A DNA stretch of 64,000 nt from Aliiroseovarius sp. PrR006 (GTDB lineage Bacteria > Pseudomonadota > Alphaproteobacteria > Rhodobacterales > Rhodobacteraceae). Shown here one piece after another: positions 4,063 to 59,865 of the stretch (within the stretch, counting starts at the first letter, position 1; every line of letters starts with the position of its first letter). The notes beneath the pieces are model-generated. The model saw only the letters and a program-made list of their open reading frames with translations, ran no database searches and was not told the DNA's origin. The stretch is from positions 806,001 through 870,000 of the forward strand of contig NZ_JAAGOY010000004.1 in assembly GCF_010500215.1 (NCBI RefSeq), given 5' to 3'. The position numbers were made by a program, and so were the translations under genes.

Positions 4063-5604
4063 TTAATGCGCTGCGGCCTGAGCCATCTCTGCGTCTGCAG
4101 GGATAGCGGCGTGGAAGTTGGTCAGAAGCGCCTCGACCGAGGGGCCAATGATGTCCGTGACCAGTGATGGGTAGACACCCAGAAGCAGGGTCATGAAGAC
4201 GAGCGGTGCGAAGATTGCTTTCTCGCGAGCGTTCATTTCAGTGATCGACTTCAGGCTTTCCTTGATCAGGTCGCCAAAGACGACGCGGCGATAGAGGTAC
4301 AGCGCATAAGCGGCCGAGAAGATCACACCCGAGGTCGCAACCAAGGCCACCCAGGTATTGGCTTTGAACATGCCGACCAGCGTCAGGAATTCACCGACAA
4401 AACCCGAAGTGCCCGGCAGGCCCACGTTCGCCATGGTGAAGAACATGAAGATCAGCGCGTAGGCCGGCATGCGGTTCACAAGGCCACCATAGGCGTCGAT
4501 GTCGCGGGTGTGCATGCGGTCATAGATGACTCCCACACACAGGAAGAGCGCGCCCGAGATGAAGCCGTGGCTGATCATCTGGAAGATCGCCCCGTCCAGA
4601 CCTTGTTGGTTTAGCGAGAAGATACCGGCAGTGACATAACCCATGTGGGCAACCGACGAATAGGCGATCAGCTTTTTCATGTCTTCCTGAACCAGCGCCA
4701 CCAGCGAAGTATAGACGATGGCAATCGCCGACATCCACAGAACGAAGCAGGCCATGACATCGGCCCCGACGGGGAACATCGGCAAGCTGAAGCGCAGGAA
4801 GCCGTAGCCGCCCATTTTCAGCAGGATCGCAGCCAGCACAACCGAACCTGCAGTTGGCGCTTGAACGTGTGCGTCAGGCAACCAGGTGTGGACCGGCCAC
4901 ATCGGCATCTTCACTGCGAAGCTTGCAAAGAAGGCCAAGAACAGAAGCGTTTGTGCGCCACCTACGATCTGGATGCCCAGAAGGCTGAAGTCTTCCGAAC
5001 CAAACTTGTGTGCCGTCAACGTCGGAATATCCGTCGTGCCTGCGTCGACGAACATATAGATCATCGCAACCAGCATCAGGACCGAGCCAAGGAACGTATA
5101 AAGGAAGAACTTGAAGGATGCGTAGATGCGCTCTTTGCCGCCCCAGATACCGATGATCAGGAACATCGGGATCAGACCTGCTTCGAAGAACAGGTAGAAC
5201 AGCACCAAATCCAGCGCCATGAAGACGCCCAGCATTAGGGTCTCGAGCAGCAGGAAGGCGATCATGTATTCCTTCACGCGCGACGTCACGCCCCAGCTGG
5301 CCCAGATGGTCAGAGGCATCATGAAGGTGGTGAGCATCACAAATAGGACCGAGATCCCGTCGACGCCCATCTTATACTTCAGACCCATGATCCACTCGCC
5401 CTCTTCCACAAACTGGAAGCCGGTGTCCGCGGGATCAAACCCGACAAGCACCAGAAGCGAGAAAAGGAAGGTTGCAACCGTCGCTGCCAGCGCAAGATAT
5501 TTCGCGTTGCGCGCGGCCGCTTCGTCATCGCCGCGCAAGAACAGCGCGAGGATCACCGCCGCGACCAGCGGCAGGAAGGTGATGATGGAAAGCAGGTTGT
5601 TCAT
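4063..5604 (-). CDS. nuoM: NADH-quinone oxidoreductase subunit M
   Basis: This antiporter-like membrane subunit of complex I has 513 residues starting [10 protein letters not shown]. The ATG at 5602-5604 shares one base with the nuoL stop (TAATG), so an in-frame upstream extension to 5727 is rejected. Visible family signatures are [20 protein letters not shown] near residue 235 and the [11 protein letters not shown] segment near residue 310. Multiple membrane helices run throughout. It lies 12 nt before nuoN and is translationally coupled to nuoL. Confidence 0.95.
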
Positions 5605-37522: not shown

Positions 37523-37553
37523 GGCCCAATTGGGCCGAGGGGCAAAGCCCCTC
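37523..37553. terminator. Double-hairpin terminator-like element after moaA
   Basis: A perfect palindrome GGCCCAATTGGGCC (37523-37536) is immediately followed by GAGGGGC-AAA-GCCCCTC (37537-37553). It lies between the convergent moaA and M20 hydrolase genes and is preceded by ATATCCTGGGG. It looks like the GC-rich terminator-type repeats scattered between genes in Roseobacter genomes; that comparison is from memory. Confidence 0.55.
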
Positions 37554-37568
37554 CTCCCCAACATCATC

Positions 37569-55237: not shown

Positions 55238-56311
55238 TCAGGCGATCCCGCGCGCCACCATGTCTTGAGCCAGCTTGGCATAGGCATCGGCCACCGCCCC
55301 CTCGCCCGCAGCAATCGGCGTACCGCCGTCGCCCGCAAGGCGCACATCCAAGGACAGCGGGATTTCCCCAAGGAAGGGCGCACCAATCGCCGCGGCCTCG
55401 TCCTTTACGCCGCCATGACCGAACAGATGCGCCTCGTGGCCGCAATCAGGGCAAACATATGAGGACATGTTTTCAACGAGCCCCAAAATCGGAACCTTCA
55501 CCTTATCAAACATGTCGATGGCTTTGCGCGCATCCAGAAGCGCCACGTCCTGCGGGGTCGAGACCACGACCGCTCCGCTGATCTGTGCCTTTTGCGCCAG
55601 CGTCAGTTGCACGTCACCAGTTCCGGGCGGCAGATCGATTAGCAGCACGTCAAGCGGCCCCCACGAGACTTGGAACAGCATCTGTTGCAACGCGCCCATC
55701 AGCATGGGCCCACGCCAGACAACGGCCTCGCGATCCGATTTCAGCATCAGGCCAATCGACATCATCTTGACCCCGTGCGCCATGACCGGTGTCAACATGT
55801 CGCCGTCGGGGGATCCGGGCCGCTCGCTTGTGCCCATCATGCGCGGCTGTGACGGGCCGAGGATATCGGCATCCAGAAGCCCCACCTTGCGCCCTTGCTT
55901 GGCCAGCGCCACTGCAAGGTTAGAGCTGAGCGTGGATTTCCCGACCCCCCCCTTGCCCGAGGCAATCGCAACAATCGACTTCACGCCCGGCACTTGCATC
56001 GGACCCGCCTGCGGCTTGGGGTGGCCACCAATCTTCAAATTCGGTGCAGGCTTTGCGGGGGCAGCACCGTGGGCCGTCAAAATGACAGACACGCTCTCGA
56101 TCCCCGGCAGATCGGCCACGGCGGCCTCGGCCGCACGGCGTTGTGGCTCTAGTCCTGCGGCCTGCTTGGGCGACTGCGCTTCGATTACGAACCGCACCAC
56201 CGCCCCATCGACTGTCAGAGCGCGCACCATGTCGCGCGATACAAGATCGCCACCATCCGGCAACGCCACTGCCGACAGCGCGCCCATAATCCTGTCTTTT
56301 ACATCCGCCAT
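55238..56311 (-). CDS. mrp: Mrp/NBP35-family iron-sulfur carrier ATPase
   Basis: This 357-residue protein has an N-terminal MIP18/DUF59 domain (residues ~1-85) and a P-loop ATPase domain. The deviant Walker A motif GKGGVGKST is near residue 118. Near the C-terminus CPDCG provides the CxxC that holds a bridging 4Fe-4S cluster in the family. It carries Fe-S clusters to apoproteins, possibly including complex I. The ATG 56309-56311 has AAGGAGG at 5 nt; longer in-frame forms are rejected. Confidence 0.92.
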
Positions 56312-56761
56312 TGAAGCCTCCTTGATCCTGACCTCTTTACTTGGCGAATTTCTACGGGCGCGCAAGGGGCTAATCAGTTGGTCAGATCACGCCCCGAAGA
56401 ATCATTCGCGCGCCTTCAGCGGCCCTGTCCGCTCATCACACCCCACATTAAGTAGTGCCGAAATTCACCGCAGGAACTTTAAGACGAAAACTTACCCCAC
56501 GGCACTTAACACACCAATCTTTCTGCTGTGCAGCAATTAAGGGCGACGCACAGCCTGATTGCGCCTAAATGCCTATTTTATTGGCCATTTTACCTATGCG
56601 CCAGACGCATGCCGGGTTTGTTTTTCCAAGGTATTGTGCATTCGCAGCATTACCCCCATGTTTGCTTCACAGCGACACCGTTGTCGCTAACAAGAAGAGT
56701 TTGGCCCAACGATACGGGCACCCAACCCGCAGAGATCTGCGAACAAAAGTGAGTACGTGCA
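56312..56761 (+). promoter_or_regulatory. Divergent mrp/DUF1127 region with RpoH-like promoter
   Basis: A 450-bp gene-free stretch. An RpoH (sigma-32)-like promoter is visible on the plus strand: TTG at 56634-56636, 17 nt, then CCCCATGT at 56654-56661, predicting a start near 56668, about 95 nt upstream of the DUF1127 gene. An imperfect inverted repeat (GTGCCG at 56456-56461, CGGCAC at 56502-56507) lies upstream. A 74-codon open frame within the region shows no homology or codon signal. Confidence 0.5.
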
Positions 56762-56977
56762 ATGGCACACGCATCTGAAATCATTCTGGCTCATGCCAGC
56801 CTAGCTGATCGGTTCGTCGCCTTGATCGCAGGCTGGAAAGACGACTTCGCTACGCGTCAAGCCTATCGCCAGACCGTGAAAGAGCTGAGCAGCCTGAGCG
56901 ATCGCGAGCTGAAAGATCTGGGCATCAACCGAAGCTCGATCCGCCTGATTGCACGCATGGCCGTTTACGGCAACTAA
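56762..56977 (+). CDS. DUF1127 small protein (CcaF1-like)
   Basis: This 71-residue basic protein has the C-terminal YjiS/DUF1127 domain (residues ~35-70, LSSLSDRELKDLGINRSSI). The start ATG is preceded by AGTACGTGCA with little ribosome-binding site. In Rhodobacter sphaeroides the DUF1127 protein CcaF1 is encoded directly upstream of the CcsR sRNAs, is RpoH-dependent, and has RNA-binding activity linked to stress. Here too, eight CCTCCTCCC hairpins begin 12 nt after the stop. Orthology is inferred from this arrangement. Confidence 0.9.
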   Translation: MAHASEIILAHASLADRFVALIAGWKDDFATRQAYRQTVKELSSLSDRELKDLGINRSSIRLIARMAVYGN

Positions 56978-56988
56978 GTTTCTGTTCC

Positions 56989-57057
56989 CCGCCTTCCTCC
57001 TCCCTGGCGGTGAACTGAATGGCGGCGAGGTCTCTCCTCCTCCCTGATCTCGCCGCC
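56989..57057 (+). ncRNA. CcsR/cuckoo-type sRNA unit 1 (hairpins 1-2)
   Basis: Hairpin 1: CCGCC (56989-56993) and GGCGG (57006-57010) with CCTCCTCCC at 56996-57004 in the loop. Hairpin 2: GGCGGCGAG (57021-57029) and CTCGCCGCC (57049-57057) with the motif at 57036-57044. Two motif-presenting hairpins per unit is the CcsR layout. Confidence 0.85.
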
Positions 57058-57067
57058 CAAAATCTTC

Positions 57068-57136
57068 GGACTGTCACCCTCCTCCCAGACAGTCCTCGGG
57101 TCGCGGTGATGTCTTCCTCCTCCCTGACATCACCGC
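57068..57136 (+). ncRNA. CcsR/cuckoo-type sRNA unit 2 (hairpins 3-4)
   Basis: Hairpin 3: GGACTGTC/GACAGTCC (57068-57075, 57088-57095), motif at 57078-57086. Hairpin 4: GCGGTGATGTC/GACATCACCGC (57103-57113, 57126-57136), motif at 57116-57124. Stems are perfect but share no sequence with unit 1; only the loop is conserved. Confidence 0.87.
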
Positions 57137-57142
57137 ACCCCC

Positions 57143-57217
57143 AAATTTCGGGGCGTTCCACCCTCCTCCCAGGAACAACCCGATTTGACGTGGGTCACCT
57201 CCTCCCGACCCAGGTCA
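57143..57217 (+). ncRNA. CcsR/cuckoo-type sRNA unit 3 (hairpins 5-6)
   Basis: Hairpin 5: GTTCC/GGAAC (57155-57159, 57172-57176), extended after an internal loop by CGGG/CCCG and AAAT/ATTT; motif at 57162-57170. Hairpin 6: TGGGTC/GACCCA (57191-57196, 57207-57212), extended by TGAC/GTCA; motif at 57198-57206. The two share base 57186. Confidence 0.84.
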
Positions 57218-57223
57218 CAGCGC

Positions 57224-57308
57224 CGGACCTCTCTCCTCCTCCCAGAGGTCCGACCAAATAGGAAACGGCGTCGCTCTCCTCCTCCCGAGCGGCGCCGTTT
57301 TTCTTTTC
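57224..57308 (+). ncRNA. CcsR/cuckoo-type sRNA unit 4 (hairpins 7-8)
   Basis: Hairpin 7: CGGACCTCT/AGAGGTCCG (57224-57232, 57244-57252), motif at 57235-57243. Hairpin 8: a 12-bp stem, AAACGGCG and CGCT against AGCG and CGCCGTTT with single unpaired bases (57263-57275, 57288-57300), motif at 57278-57286. Hairpin 8 runs into a T-tract and so doubles as the terminator of the unit. Confidence 0.86.
57263..57308 (+). terminator. Terminator of the DUF1127-CcsR transcript
   Basis: Hairpin 8 of the array is followed by TTTTTCTTTT (57298-57307), forming an intrinsic terminator. On the opposite strand the same stem ends in TTT, giving at best a weak stop for the convergent helicase gene, which ends at 57325. 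Confidence 0.8.
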
Positions 57309-57324
57309 GGAATGTCTGATGTGT

Positions 57325-59865
57325 TTAGAAGGGAACGTCGCCTGCTTGCGCGGCTGGGACGATGAACTTGGACACGACTTTCTTGGCCCCGGCCTTGTCG
57401 AATTCAATGTCCAACTTGTCGCCCTCGATCCCCATCACGGTGCCATAGCCGAACTTGGTGTGGAACACGCGGTCGCCTTGGGTGAAGGACGAGACAGCGG
57501 TCGCGTCGATCACAAGGCCCTTCGCTTCGTTCTGGGCGGGTTTCGCGCGCAGATTACCCTGCGCCTGCATCCGCTTCCAACCGGGCGAATTATAAGCGTC
57601 CGCGCGGCTGGCCTTGTCTTCCAGCGGAGATTGCCCACCGAAATCTCCTGACATGCCGCCATAGCCACCGCCATAGAGACCCGGTGCCGTCAGAACTTCC
57701 ACGTGGTCCTCGGGCAGCTCATCGACAAAGCGTGAGGGCAGCTGCGACTGCCACTGGCCGTAAACGCGGCGGTTGGCGGCGAAAGAGATCGTGCAGACCT
57801 CCTCGGCCCGCGTAATGCCCACATAGGCCAGCCGCCGTTCTTCCTCGAGCCCCTTCAGTCCGCTTTCATCCATCGAGCGCTGAGACGGGAACAGCCCGTC
57901 TTCCCAGCCCGGCAGGAACACGGCGGGATACTCCAACCCTTTGGCACCGTGCAGGGTCATGATCGTGACCTTCTCTTCCGCATCGTCCGTGTCATTGTCC
58001 ATGATCAGGCTGACATGTTCGAGGAATCCTTGAAGGTTTTCAAAGCTTTCCAGCGCCTTCACCAGTTCCTTGAGGTTCTCTAGCCGCCCCGGCGCTTCGG
58101 GCGTCTTGTCGTTCAGCCACATCGTTGTGTAGCCGGATTCCTCAAGGATCATCTCGGCCAATTCGATATGGGTGTCTTCCTCGGCGCGCAGTTGGTTGAA
58201 CCAACGGTCGAGGTTCCCAACCAGCTCGGCCAGCCCCTTGCCGCCTTTGCCCTTGATCGCCCCGCTTTCCACCGCAATCCGCGCGCCTTCGACCAGCGAG
58301 ACGCCGTTGGTGCGGGCGAGCATCTGGATGGTCTGGACAGCTTTGTCGCCCAAGCCACGGCGCGGCGTGTTGACGATGCGTTCAAATGCCAGATCGTCAT
58401 CTTGGCTGACGGCGAGCCGGAAATAGGCCATCGCATCGCGGATTTCGAGCCGTTCATAGAAGCGCGGACCGCCAATGACGCGATAGGGCAAGCCTATGGT
58501 CAGGAAGCGGTCTTCGAAGGCGCGCATTTGGTGCGACGCGCGAACAAGGATTGCCATGTCATCCAGCGACATCCCCGCCCTGCCCCGTGTACCCGATTGC
58601 ATCGCCTCGATTTCTTCACCGACCCAGCGCGCTTCCTCGTCGCCGTCCCAGTGACCGATCAGGCGCACCTTCTCGCCGCCTTCGGCCTCGGTCCACAGCT
58701 CTTTGCCCAGACGATCCGCGTTGCCCGCGATCACGCCGGACGCGGCCGCCAGAATATGCGCGGTCGAGCGATAGTTCTGCTCCAGCCGCACCACCTTCGC
58801 GCCGGGAAAATCCTTTTCAAACCGCAGGATATTGCCGACCTCGGCCCCGCGCCAGCCATAGATCGACTGGTCGTCATCGCCCACGCAGCAGATGTTTTTA
58901 TGCCCCGCAGCGAGCAGGCGCAGCCAGAGGTATTGGGCGACGTTCGTATCTTGGTACTCGTCCACGAGGATGTATTTGAACCAGCTTTGATACTTGGCCA
59001 GAATGTCGTCGTGCCGCTGGAAAATCGTGACCATGTGCAGCAGCAGATCACCGAAATCACAGGCATTCAGCGTCTTCAGACGTTCCTGATATTGGGCATA
59101 GAGTTCTGGCCCGCGGCCATTAAACGCCTGCGCCTCGGACGTGGGCAGCGTTTCCGGTGTCCACGCCCGGTTTTTCCAATTGTCGATCACGCCCGACAAC
59201 AGCCGCGCGGGCCAGCGTTTTTCGTCAATATTGTTGGCCACGATCAGCTGTTTCAGCAGCCGGATCTGGTCGTCCGTATCCAGAATGGTGAAGTTGGTTT
59301 TCAGCCCCACAAGCTCGGCGTGCCGGCGCAACAGCTTCACGCAGATCGAGTGGAAGGTGCCCATCCACGGCATGCCCTCTACCGTCTGCCCCAGCAGCCC
59401 CGCGACCCGTTCCTTCATCTCGCGCGCAGCCTTGTTGGTAAAGGTCACGGCCAAGATTTCATTGGTTCGCGCGGACCCGGTGGTCAGCAGATGCGCGATG
59501 CGGGTGGTCAAGGCTTTGGTCTTGCCCGTCCCCGCGCCAGCCAGCATCAAAACAGGGCCGTGTAGAGTCTCGACCGCCTCGCGTTGGGCGGGGTTCAAGC
59601 CGTCCATGTAGGGTGCTGAGCGAGCCCCCAAAGCCGCACCCATCGCACGCTGTGACAGCGGTACGTTTGGCGTGCTCATCCCGTCATCGGAATCATCAAT
59701 CAGGTCGTCATCAAGATCACCGGCACCTTGGCCGGCCCCACCCGCACCCGATCGCCCCACAGCGCCCACGCGCGCTCCCCCTCCTTGCACGCGCCGAGGC
59801 TTTTCGGCCCCCGCCCAGTCTTCGGTAGATTTATCAAAAAGTTTGTCGTCGTCGGTGCTGCTCAT
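57325..59865 (-). CDS. UvrD/PcrA-type ATP-dependent 3'-5' DNA helicase
   Basis: This 846-residue SF1A helicase acts in repair and replication restart. A disordered acidic/Gly-rich N-terminal tail (residues 1-~80) precedes the core. Motif Q/I is LNPAQREAV then LAGAGTGKTKALTTRIAHL near residue 108, motif II VDEYQDTN near residue 298, motif III VGDDDQSIYGWRGAE near residue 325, and motif VI LAYVGITRAEE near residue 690. The C-terminal tail (KFGYGTVMGIEGDKLDIEFD, near 815) is the Tudor-like RNA-polymerase-binding domain of PcrA/UvrD. It is monocistronic and convergent with the sRNA array. Confidence 0.93.
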   Translation of the reverse strand: MSSTDDDKLFDKSTEDWAGAEKPRRVQGGGARVGAVGRSGAGGAGQGAGDLDDDLIDDSDDGMSTPNVPLSQRAMGAALGARSAPYMDGLNPAQREAVETLHGPVLMLAGAGTGKTKALTTRIAHLLTTGSARTNEILAVTFTNKAAREMKERVAGLLGQTVEGMPWMGTFHSICVKLLRRHAELVGLKTNFTILDTDDQIRLLKQLIVANNIDEKRWPARLLSGVIDNWKNRAWTPETLPTSEAQAFNGRGPELYAQYQERLKTLNACDFGDLLLHMVTIFQRHDDILAKYQSWFKYILVDEYQDTNVAQYLWLRLLAAGHKNICCVGDDDQSIYGWRGAEVGNILRFEKDFPGAKVVRLEQNYRSTAHILAAASGVIAGNADRLGKELWTEAEGGEKVRLIGHWDGDEEARWVGEEIEAMQSGTRGRAGMSLDDMAILVRASHQMRAFEDRFLTIGLPYRVIGGPRFYERLEIRDAMAYFRLAVSQDDDLAFERIVNTPRRGLGDKAVQTIQMLARTNGVSLVEGARIAVESGAIKGKGGKGLAELVGNLDRWFNQLRAEEDTHIELAEMILEESGYTTMWLNDKTPEAPGRLENLKELVKALESFENLQGFLEHVSLIMDNDTDDAEEKVTIMTLHGAKGLEYPAVFLPGWEDGLFPSQRSMDESGLKGLEEERRLAYVGITRAEEVCTISFAANRRVYGQWQSQLPSRFVDELPEDHVEVLTAPGLYGGGYGGMSGDFGGQSPLEDKASRADAYNSPGWKRMQAQGNLRAKPAQNEAKGLVIDATAVSSFTQGDRVFHTKFGYGTVMGIEGDKLDIEFDKAGAKKVVSKFIVPAAQAGDVPF

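Follow-up and report, generated by a model that had tools for sequence, protein, structure and literature searches.

Known CcsR-type RNAs and the present locus

The closest described system is the ccaF1-CcsR1-4 locus of Rhodobacter sphaeroides, which is reported to be co-transcribed from an RpoHI/HII promoter and matured by RNase E (PMC10253847; PMC8625941). Further features given in the accounts of this locus are an influence of the DUF1127 protein CcaF1, dependence on Hfq, turnover by PNPase and flhR as a target (PMC10253847, PMC8625941, PMC7866481, PMC8307010). CcaF1 is described as promoting CcsR maturation, yet as hindering it when its level is raised (PMC8307010 for the hindrance). In NfeR1, a three-hairpin relative, the loops are reported to be redundant and silencing to be genetically confirmed (PMC7143759).

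The window analysed here is a stretch of 64,000 nt from Aliiroseovarius sp. PrR006 (contig NZ_JAAGOY010000004.1, positions 806,001 to 870,000). It contains an eight-hairpin array that belongs to the CcsR/cuckoo (CIN1-type) RNAs, a family already known, of which it is a new member. With a probability of about 0.75, we read the locus as a stress-made CcsR/cuckoo-type operon that would be cut into two-hairpin RNAs whose loops would pair with Shine-Dalgarno sites, the pairing and the cutting being taken over from published relatives.

Anatomy of the array

The exact 9-mer CCTCCTCCC occurs eight times on the + strand of the array, from 56996 to 57286 (Table 1), compared with a mean of 0.69 and a maximum of 3 copies in 100 shuffles of the window. 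All eight motifs are flanked by stems, the loop-to-loop distances (36-46 nt) are nearly even, and hairpin 8 runs into the T-tract TTTTTCTTTT. The sequence-only reading of this region, eight consecutive hairpins with an exact 9-mer in the loop and a T-tract at the end, is thus borne out, as is the DUF1127 gene that it placed ahead of them. Its extent for the array, 56989-57308, is right in position but not in its start: hairpin 1 reaches back to within 2 nt of the DUF1127 stop codon. The statement that the stems differ completely applies to most pairs, with arm identities of 0.32-0.65 (null mean 0.45, 95% level 0.63), but not to hairpins 2 and 4, whose identity of 0.73 lies at the 99% level of the null and is only suggestive among 28 comparisons.

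Table 1. Positions of the array, its upstream elements and neighbouring genes in the window.
Feature	Position	Strand	Remarks
Neighbour: Mrp-type NTPase gene	55238-56305	-	
Promoter element B, ATTGTGCATTCGCAGCA	56633-56649	+	0-mismatch match; TTG would fit RpoHI/HII -35
CCCCAT, possible RpoH-type -10	56654-56659	+	read from sequence
DUF1127 gene, 71 aa, CcaF1-like	56762-56977	+	PF06568, E 9.4e-13
Hairpin 1	56980-57019	+	loop motif 56996-57004
Hairpin 2	57021-57057	+	loop motif 57036-57044; hairpins 1-2 are the full-length CcsR1 model match 56978-57061
Hairpin 3	57068-57095	+	loop motif 57078-57086
Hairpin 4	57098-57141	+	loop motif 57116-57124
Hairpin 5	57148-57183	+	loop motif 57162-57170
Hairpin 6	57186-57217	+	loop motif 57198-57206; hairpins 6-8 are the Rfam ar14 match 57180-57302
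Hairpin 7	57224-57252	+	loop motif 57235-57243
Hairpin 8 and T-tract	57261-57307	+	loop motif 57278-57286; terminator also bearing loop
Neighbour: UvrD/PcrA-type helicase gene	57325-59865	-	

Genome-wide, CCTCCTCCC is present in 13 copies in 3.2 Mb, eight of them in the array, and the reversed control pattern in 10; a whole-genome motif search found no second cluster of the exact motif. A ninth copy in the window stands single at 37550, outside any array, where it overlaps the 3' arm of a GGGGCAAAGCCCC hairpin (37539-37558). A blastn search with 671 bases returned no plasmid relatives. A reading frame running across the array was considered and rejected: across the window and the six relatives nearest to it, loops 1 and 8 lie 280-284 nt apart, and the relatives deviate from the window value by 1 or 2 nt, which leaves no conserved frame.

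Family assignment and distribution

Two Rfam models were compared with the array, the three-hairpin ar14 (RF02344) and the two-hairpin CcsR1 (RF02791; 83 positions). The ar14 model matches hairpins 6-8 with 77.9 bits, above its cut-off of 58.8, and hairpins 1-3 (56976-57101) with 58.0 bits, just below it. CcsR1 covers hairpins 1-2 with its full length (1-83) and an E-value of 2.6e-13, but its 54.2 bits fall short of the cut-off of 65.3. The array had been assigned to the CcsR/cuckoo family from the sequence alone, with background-level covariance scores named as the outcome that would speak against it; the ar14 score and the CcsR1 E-value, together with the PF06568 gene upstream, uphold that assignment. 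Of 20 loci of relatives, none reaches the CcsR1 cut-off and eight reach that of ar14. In the family, ar14 matches with E up to 0.001 occur in 121 of 149 genomes and lie above the cut-off in 20; the corresponding counts are 57 and 15 of 61 genomes in the order sample, and 15 and 1 of 289 in the class sample, where at most 11 candidates were scored per genome listed.

A scan of named genomes retrieved at least 120 loci. Among the 120 loci listed, 107 have clusters of three or more hairpins; taxa were assigned from record titles. The 21 Rhodobacterales arrays among them have a median of 8 hairpins (4-14), and in 20 a DUF1127 gene ends at most 100 nt upstream. The 82 Hyphomicrobiales arrays listed have a median of 3 hairpins (3-6); 15 have DUF1127 within 100 nt and 67 do not, some of the latter with a DUF1127 gene about 200 nt away and 4 at the slice edge. 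Six of the 120 listed loci lie outside the alphaproteobacteria, five of them without a hairpin cluster. The sixth, L194, is spaced at exactly 63 nt and looks like a tandem repeat. The window array is of the Rhodobacterales type, DUF1127-linked and with a median of 8 hairpins, an association that is called CIN1 in the account of PMC10253847.

Selection on structure and loop

The predicted fold of the 335-nt stretch has an energy of -157.8 kcal/mol (z -10.6), equalled by none of 100 shuffles, and the mean unpaired probability is 1.0 for all eight loops in the predicted ensemble. By DNA search, 20 of the 21 genomes of the source genus have the locus, with DUF1127 directly upstream in all 20. Nineteen of these arrays have eight hairpins and were aligned on an eight-helix structure for the covariation analysis; the remaining one, L051, in which seven hairpins were found, was left out.

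Two-sided changes were found in 36 of 74 pairs across the 19 sequences, compared with 21.2 in shuffles (0 of 500 reach 36) and 7-14 in controls with slid partners. Paired cells account for 96.7% of 1398, against 86.5 in shuffles, and the covariation measure is 0.409, against 0.216 in shuffles and 0.060-0.110 with partners slid. The measure of further pair types is just slightly higher than in shuffles (85 versus 78.7; 6 of 500 shuffles reach 85). Because most of the structure came from this very alignment, the unslid version has an advantage, and relatedness among sequences can lift values above those of shuffles; even so, the two-sided changes lie far beyond both the shuffled and the slid controls. 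Of the 152 hairpins of these 19 sequences, 148 have an exact loop, and majority-base frequencies are 0.985 in loops, 0.821 in stems and 0.707 elsewhere. This sequence comparison indicates that the hairpins are orthologous across the 19 genomes and that both structure and loop are under selection. The differing stems had earlier been taken as a covariation-like sign of such selection. The selection itself is proven by the orthologs, but differences between hairpins within one array are not covariation. The array, described earlier as a clean example with per-unit stems and perfect loops, is clean and well conserved.

Paired build of the arrays

Loop spacing was counted in relatives together with the window: 55 loci were chosen, four with fewer than four hairpins were dropped, and 51 arrays remained, two of which (L123 and L148) are unplaced metagenome bins. 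Arrays in this wider set have 4 to 14 hairpins; the number is even in 38 of 51, and in 34 of 51 at least four consecutive Ts were found at the last hairpin. Loop-to-loop distances of at least 55 nt follow an even-numbered hairpin 67 times and an odd-numbered one 7 times. Restricting the count to 55-76 nt, a range less prone to overlooked hairpins, leaves 51 and 4, and individual arrays lean towards even in 31 cases and towards odd in 3. Long gaps thus come after every second hairpin, and the arrays are spaced as pairs, which fits the two-hairpin units of CcsR, with 8 = 4 x 2. This supports the view that the arrays probably grow by hairpin pairs, as two-hairpin units. The A+T content of mid-spacers does not rise after every second hairpin in these arrays (0.400 even versus 0.411 odd, p 0.43), and hence no RNase E signature was found. 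The idea in the sequence-only reading that eight loops make four units accordingly gains from the spacing rule in the relatives, but not from the near-even distances of the window itself or from spacer A+T.

Promoter region

The promoter set was drawn from the same 55 loci. An upstream DUF1127 gene was found in 53 of them (not in L012 and L020), and L108 was too short upstream (3 nt) to be read, so that 52 promoters remained. TTGTGCA-N3-GCAG is present in all 52 readable promoters and ATTGTGCA in 51, although not all 52 are independent (for example, L011 and L073 are of one genus); mononucleotide shuffles gave 0.7 for TTGTGCA and 0.1 for ATTGTGCA. Within the source genus, TTGTGCA-N3-GCAGCA was found in 19 of 20 promoters. 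This element, element B, also precedes three named Rhodobacterales loci outside the set (L134, L135 and L142). It is absent before L204 and therefore not universal; L205 has no hairpin cluster. By a strict pattern, element B precedes 17 of 21 Rhodobacterales and none of 82 Hyphomicrobiales arrays among the loci listed. The conserved GCAG appears to exceed what a sigma factor would need.

Downstream of element B, the window has CCCCAT, which has the form of the RpoH-type -10 consensus and is a possible -10. CCCAT occupies the -10 place in 17 of 20 genus promoters, and CC(C/T)AT does so in only 16 of the 52 of the family set. The window promoter reads TTG-N17-CCCCAT (56634-56659), with CAT where TAT is described: RpoHI/HII promoters are given as TTG at -35 and TAT at -12 (PMC10673084).

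In 33 of 52 relatives, a second element, element A (exact CTGCATRGCAG), starts 28-29 nt ahead of TTGTGCA. It carries CTGCNNNGCAG, quoted in PMC12542648 as the site of PhaR in R. sphaeroides and found in exact form anywhere upstream in 35 of 52, compared with 0.3 in shuffled sequence and 2.1 in random stretches. As a tentative and rather doubtful extension, we propose that a second regulator, besides the stress sigma factor, may act on the Rhodobacterales cuckoo operon at a two-part operator made of element A (GCTGCATRGCAGCATTG) and element B (ATTGTGCANNYGCAGCATT, 28-29 nt downstream and overlapping the presumed -35). Since element A carries the published PhaR half-sites, the carbon-storage (PHB) state might then control these anti-Shine-Dalgarno RNAs. 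PhaR was not accepted as a proven regulator: the centre of element A is ATA or ATG in 33 of 33 cases and RNY at 36 of 37 exact sites near phaR, and element A is degenerate in the source genus, where it is exact in only 1 of 20. In the source genus the element A region reads as a TATGC-N7-GCAT inverted repeat (56595-56610). Elsewhere in the genome of the window, two exact CTGCNNNGCAG boxes (L255:748-795) lie upstream of a 147-aa phasin-like frame adjoining phaR.

Genome-wide, element B has 24 sites with up to two mismatches, and its reversed control has 3. Because coding DNA may be rich in GCAGCA and many of these sites fall within reading frames, no regulon is claimed. One TGC/GCA-rich site resembling element B (L246; C4:1711930 of the same genome) separates a divergent pair of reading frames, which presumably resemble a DUF1611 protein and malyl-CoA lyase.

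In L134 (Yoonia litorea), about 77 nt separate element B from the first loop (at 5496) of an array of seven hairpins, and no DUF1127 gene intervenes; the promoter can therefore serve the array alone. This bears on the reading in which the array acts in cis, its hairpins protecting or terminating the DUF1127 mRNA and its loop being kept for a protein or for folding. An array that abuts the DUF1127 stop codon, ends in a terminator and is linked to DUF1127 nearly throughout the listed Rhodobacterales loci would suit such a role. We nevertheless regard it as improbable, because the loops are far more conserved than the stems, most of the Hyphomicrobiales arrays listed and the arrays of viral contigs have no DUF1127 gene within 100 nt, and L134 has the promoter element and the array without one.

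Proposed mechanism and candidate targets

The operon reading, which we prefer, builds on the established anatomy, selected structure, conserved loop, DUF1127 linkage, conserved promoter element and pairwise build in relatives, and takes transcription, cutting, pairing and targets from comparison with described systems. An RpoHI/HII-type stress promoter would produce a single RNA consisting of the DUF1127 mRNA and an eight-hairpin 3' end. This 3' end would be cut into about four stable two-hairpin RNAs, as is done by RNase E in R. sphaeroides, and the DUF1127 protein may influence their maturation. Each loop shows CCUCCUCCC and would pair with the purine-rich ribosome-binding sites of some mRNAs, so that their translation would be blocked. 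Several identical loops would provide a higher dose and redundancy.

The CCUCCUCCC loop is presumably a near copy of the anti-Shine-Dalgarno sequence of 16S rRNA. A search for the 16S 3' end in the source assembly gave 0 matches. In the source organism, the loops would probably pair with Shine-Dalgarno sites. The perfect complement of the loop, GGGAGGAGG, has five copies outside the array, one of which was recognised by eye as a ribosome site. It lies 4 nt before the ATG of a gene whose 86-aa product is the small subunit of a sodium/substrate symporter (TIGR03647, E 1.7e-33; L064:1236-1509, motif C7:313214-313222), where the ribosome site is AGAGGGAGGAGGCTTCATG. Among 18 genus orthologs, 10 have the perfect 9-mer and 8 have AGGGAGGTGG. 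The predicted loop pairing energy at this site is -18.7 kcal/mol; over 48 open reading frames in the window the median is -6.7. The same picture would arise if a strong ribosome site had been preserved only for translation, and the symporter gene is therefore a candidate target rather than evidence of regulation. The idea that the ribosome site of DUF1127 genes avoids loop pairing was dropped (GGAGG in 0 of 52 versus 3 of 67 control genes; pairing energies not weaker).

The scarcity of perfect 9-mer sites in the genome, with one recognised at a ribosome site, and the multivalence of the arrays, with as many as 14 identical loops each, would also suit an RNA sponge that titrates G-rich RNAs such as other small RNAs rather than blocking mRNA ribosome sites. 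We hold this to be unlikely, as the published accounts of the relatives give mRNA targets, among them flhR for CcsR (PMC8307010, PMC7143759). A repeat or mobile element that acts as DNA and has no RNA function, which the regular loop-to-loop distances might suggest, is hardly credible, being already contradicted by compensatory changes that preserve RNA pairs, by the persistence of eight hairpins after the DUF1127 gene in 19 of the 20 genus genomes and by the single exact-motif cluster of the genome.

For the favoured operon, the promoter and the perfect ribosome-site match offer direct tests of who controls the RNAs, and also of target choice by an RNA that resembles the anti-Shine-Dalgarno sequence of the ribosome. 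The CcsR/cuckoo locus type gains a firm comparative footing from covariation, hairpin counts, pairwise growth and the promoter signature of nearly all relatives examined. Its interest rests in the paired build, the common promoter signature and the phage-borne cousins.

Arrays in viral contigs

A scan of viral contigs yielded 58 contigs, 51 of them with clusters of at least three such hairpins. Exactly three hairpins are present in 48 of 52 viral clusters, and none has DUF1127 within 100 nt. Three-hairpin arrays of the ar14 type lie near phage replication genes, of helicase, Gam-like, methyltransferase or exonuclease type, in four contigs (L307:7518-7638, L312:5113-5233, L323:5420-5543 and L334:7806-7931). 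The ar14 cut-off was passed by 7 of 10 viral contigs tested. A blastn search of the GenBank phage collection with one of the viral-contig arrays gave no match. Phages may carry anti-Shine-Dalgarno RNAs of their own.

Comparison with known systems

The ar14 family, which includes NfeR1 of Sinorhizobium, has the same loop as the window array, and its model fits hairpins 6-8 above and hairpins 1-3 just below the cut-off. The NfeR1 transcript is described as 123 nt long, with a promoter signature of the sigma-70 type and a 29-nt stretch conserved upstream (PMC10746234), whereas the window array forms the 3' end of a DUF1127 gene. The window array is not placed in the free-standing NfeR1 branch, because it begins 2 nt past the DUF1127 stop codon and a simple consensus scan of 56300-57400 found no sigma-70-like site. 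SmelA075 and SmelA099, of the "cuckoo RNA" family of Reinkensmeier and co-workers, resemble the window array in their variable stems and anti-Shine-Dalgarno loop CCUCCUCCC but are described with three and four hairpins, compared with eight here (PMC3927594).

The CIN1 locus of R. sphaeroides, CcsR1-4/ccaF1, resembles the window locus in its 71-aa DUF1127 gene, CCUCCUCCC hairpins and terminator (PMC10253847; the motif is from the Rfam family name). Hairpins 1-2 of the window fit the whole CcsR1 model with a score under its cut-off, the R. sphaeroides locus being compared by its published description and the Rfam model. The window array shares several hairpins, a conserved loop and variable stems with the cuckoo RNAs, and a same-strand DUF1127 gene directly upstream with the CcsR/CIN1 loci. 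Given the CcsR1 score below the cut-off, it is filed under the wider cuckoo/CIN1 kind rather than under Rfam CcsR1.
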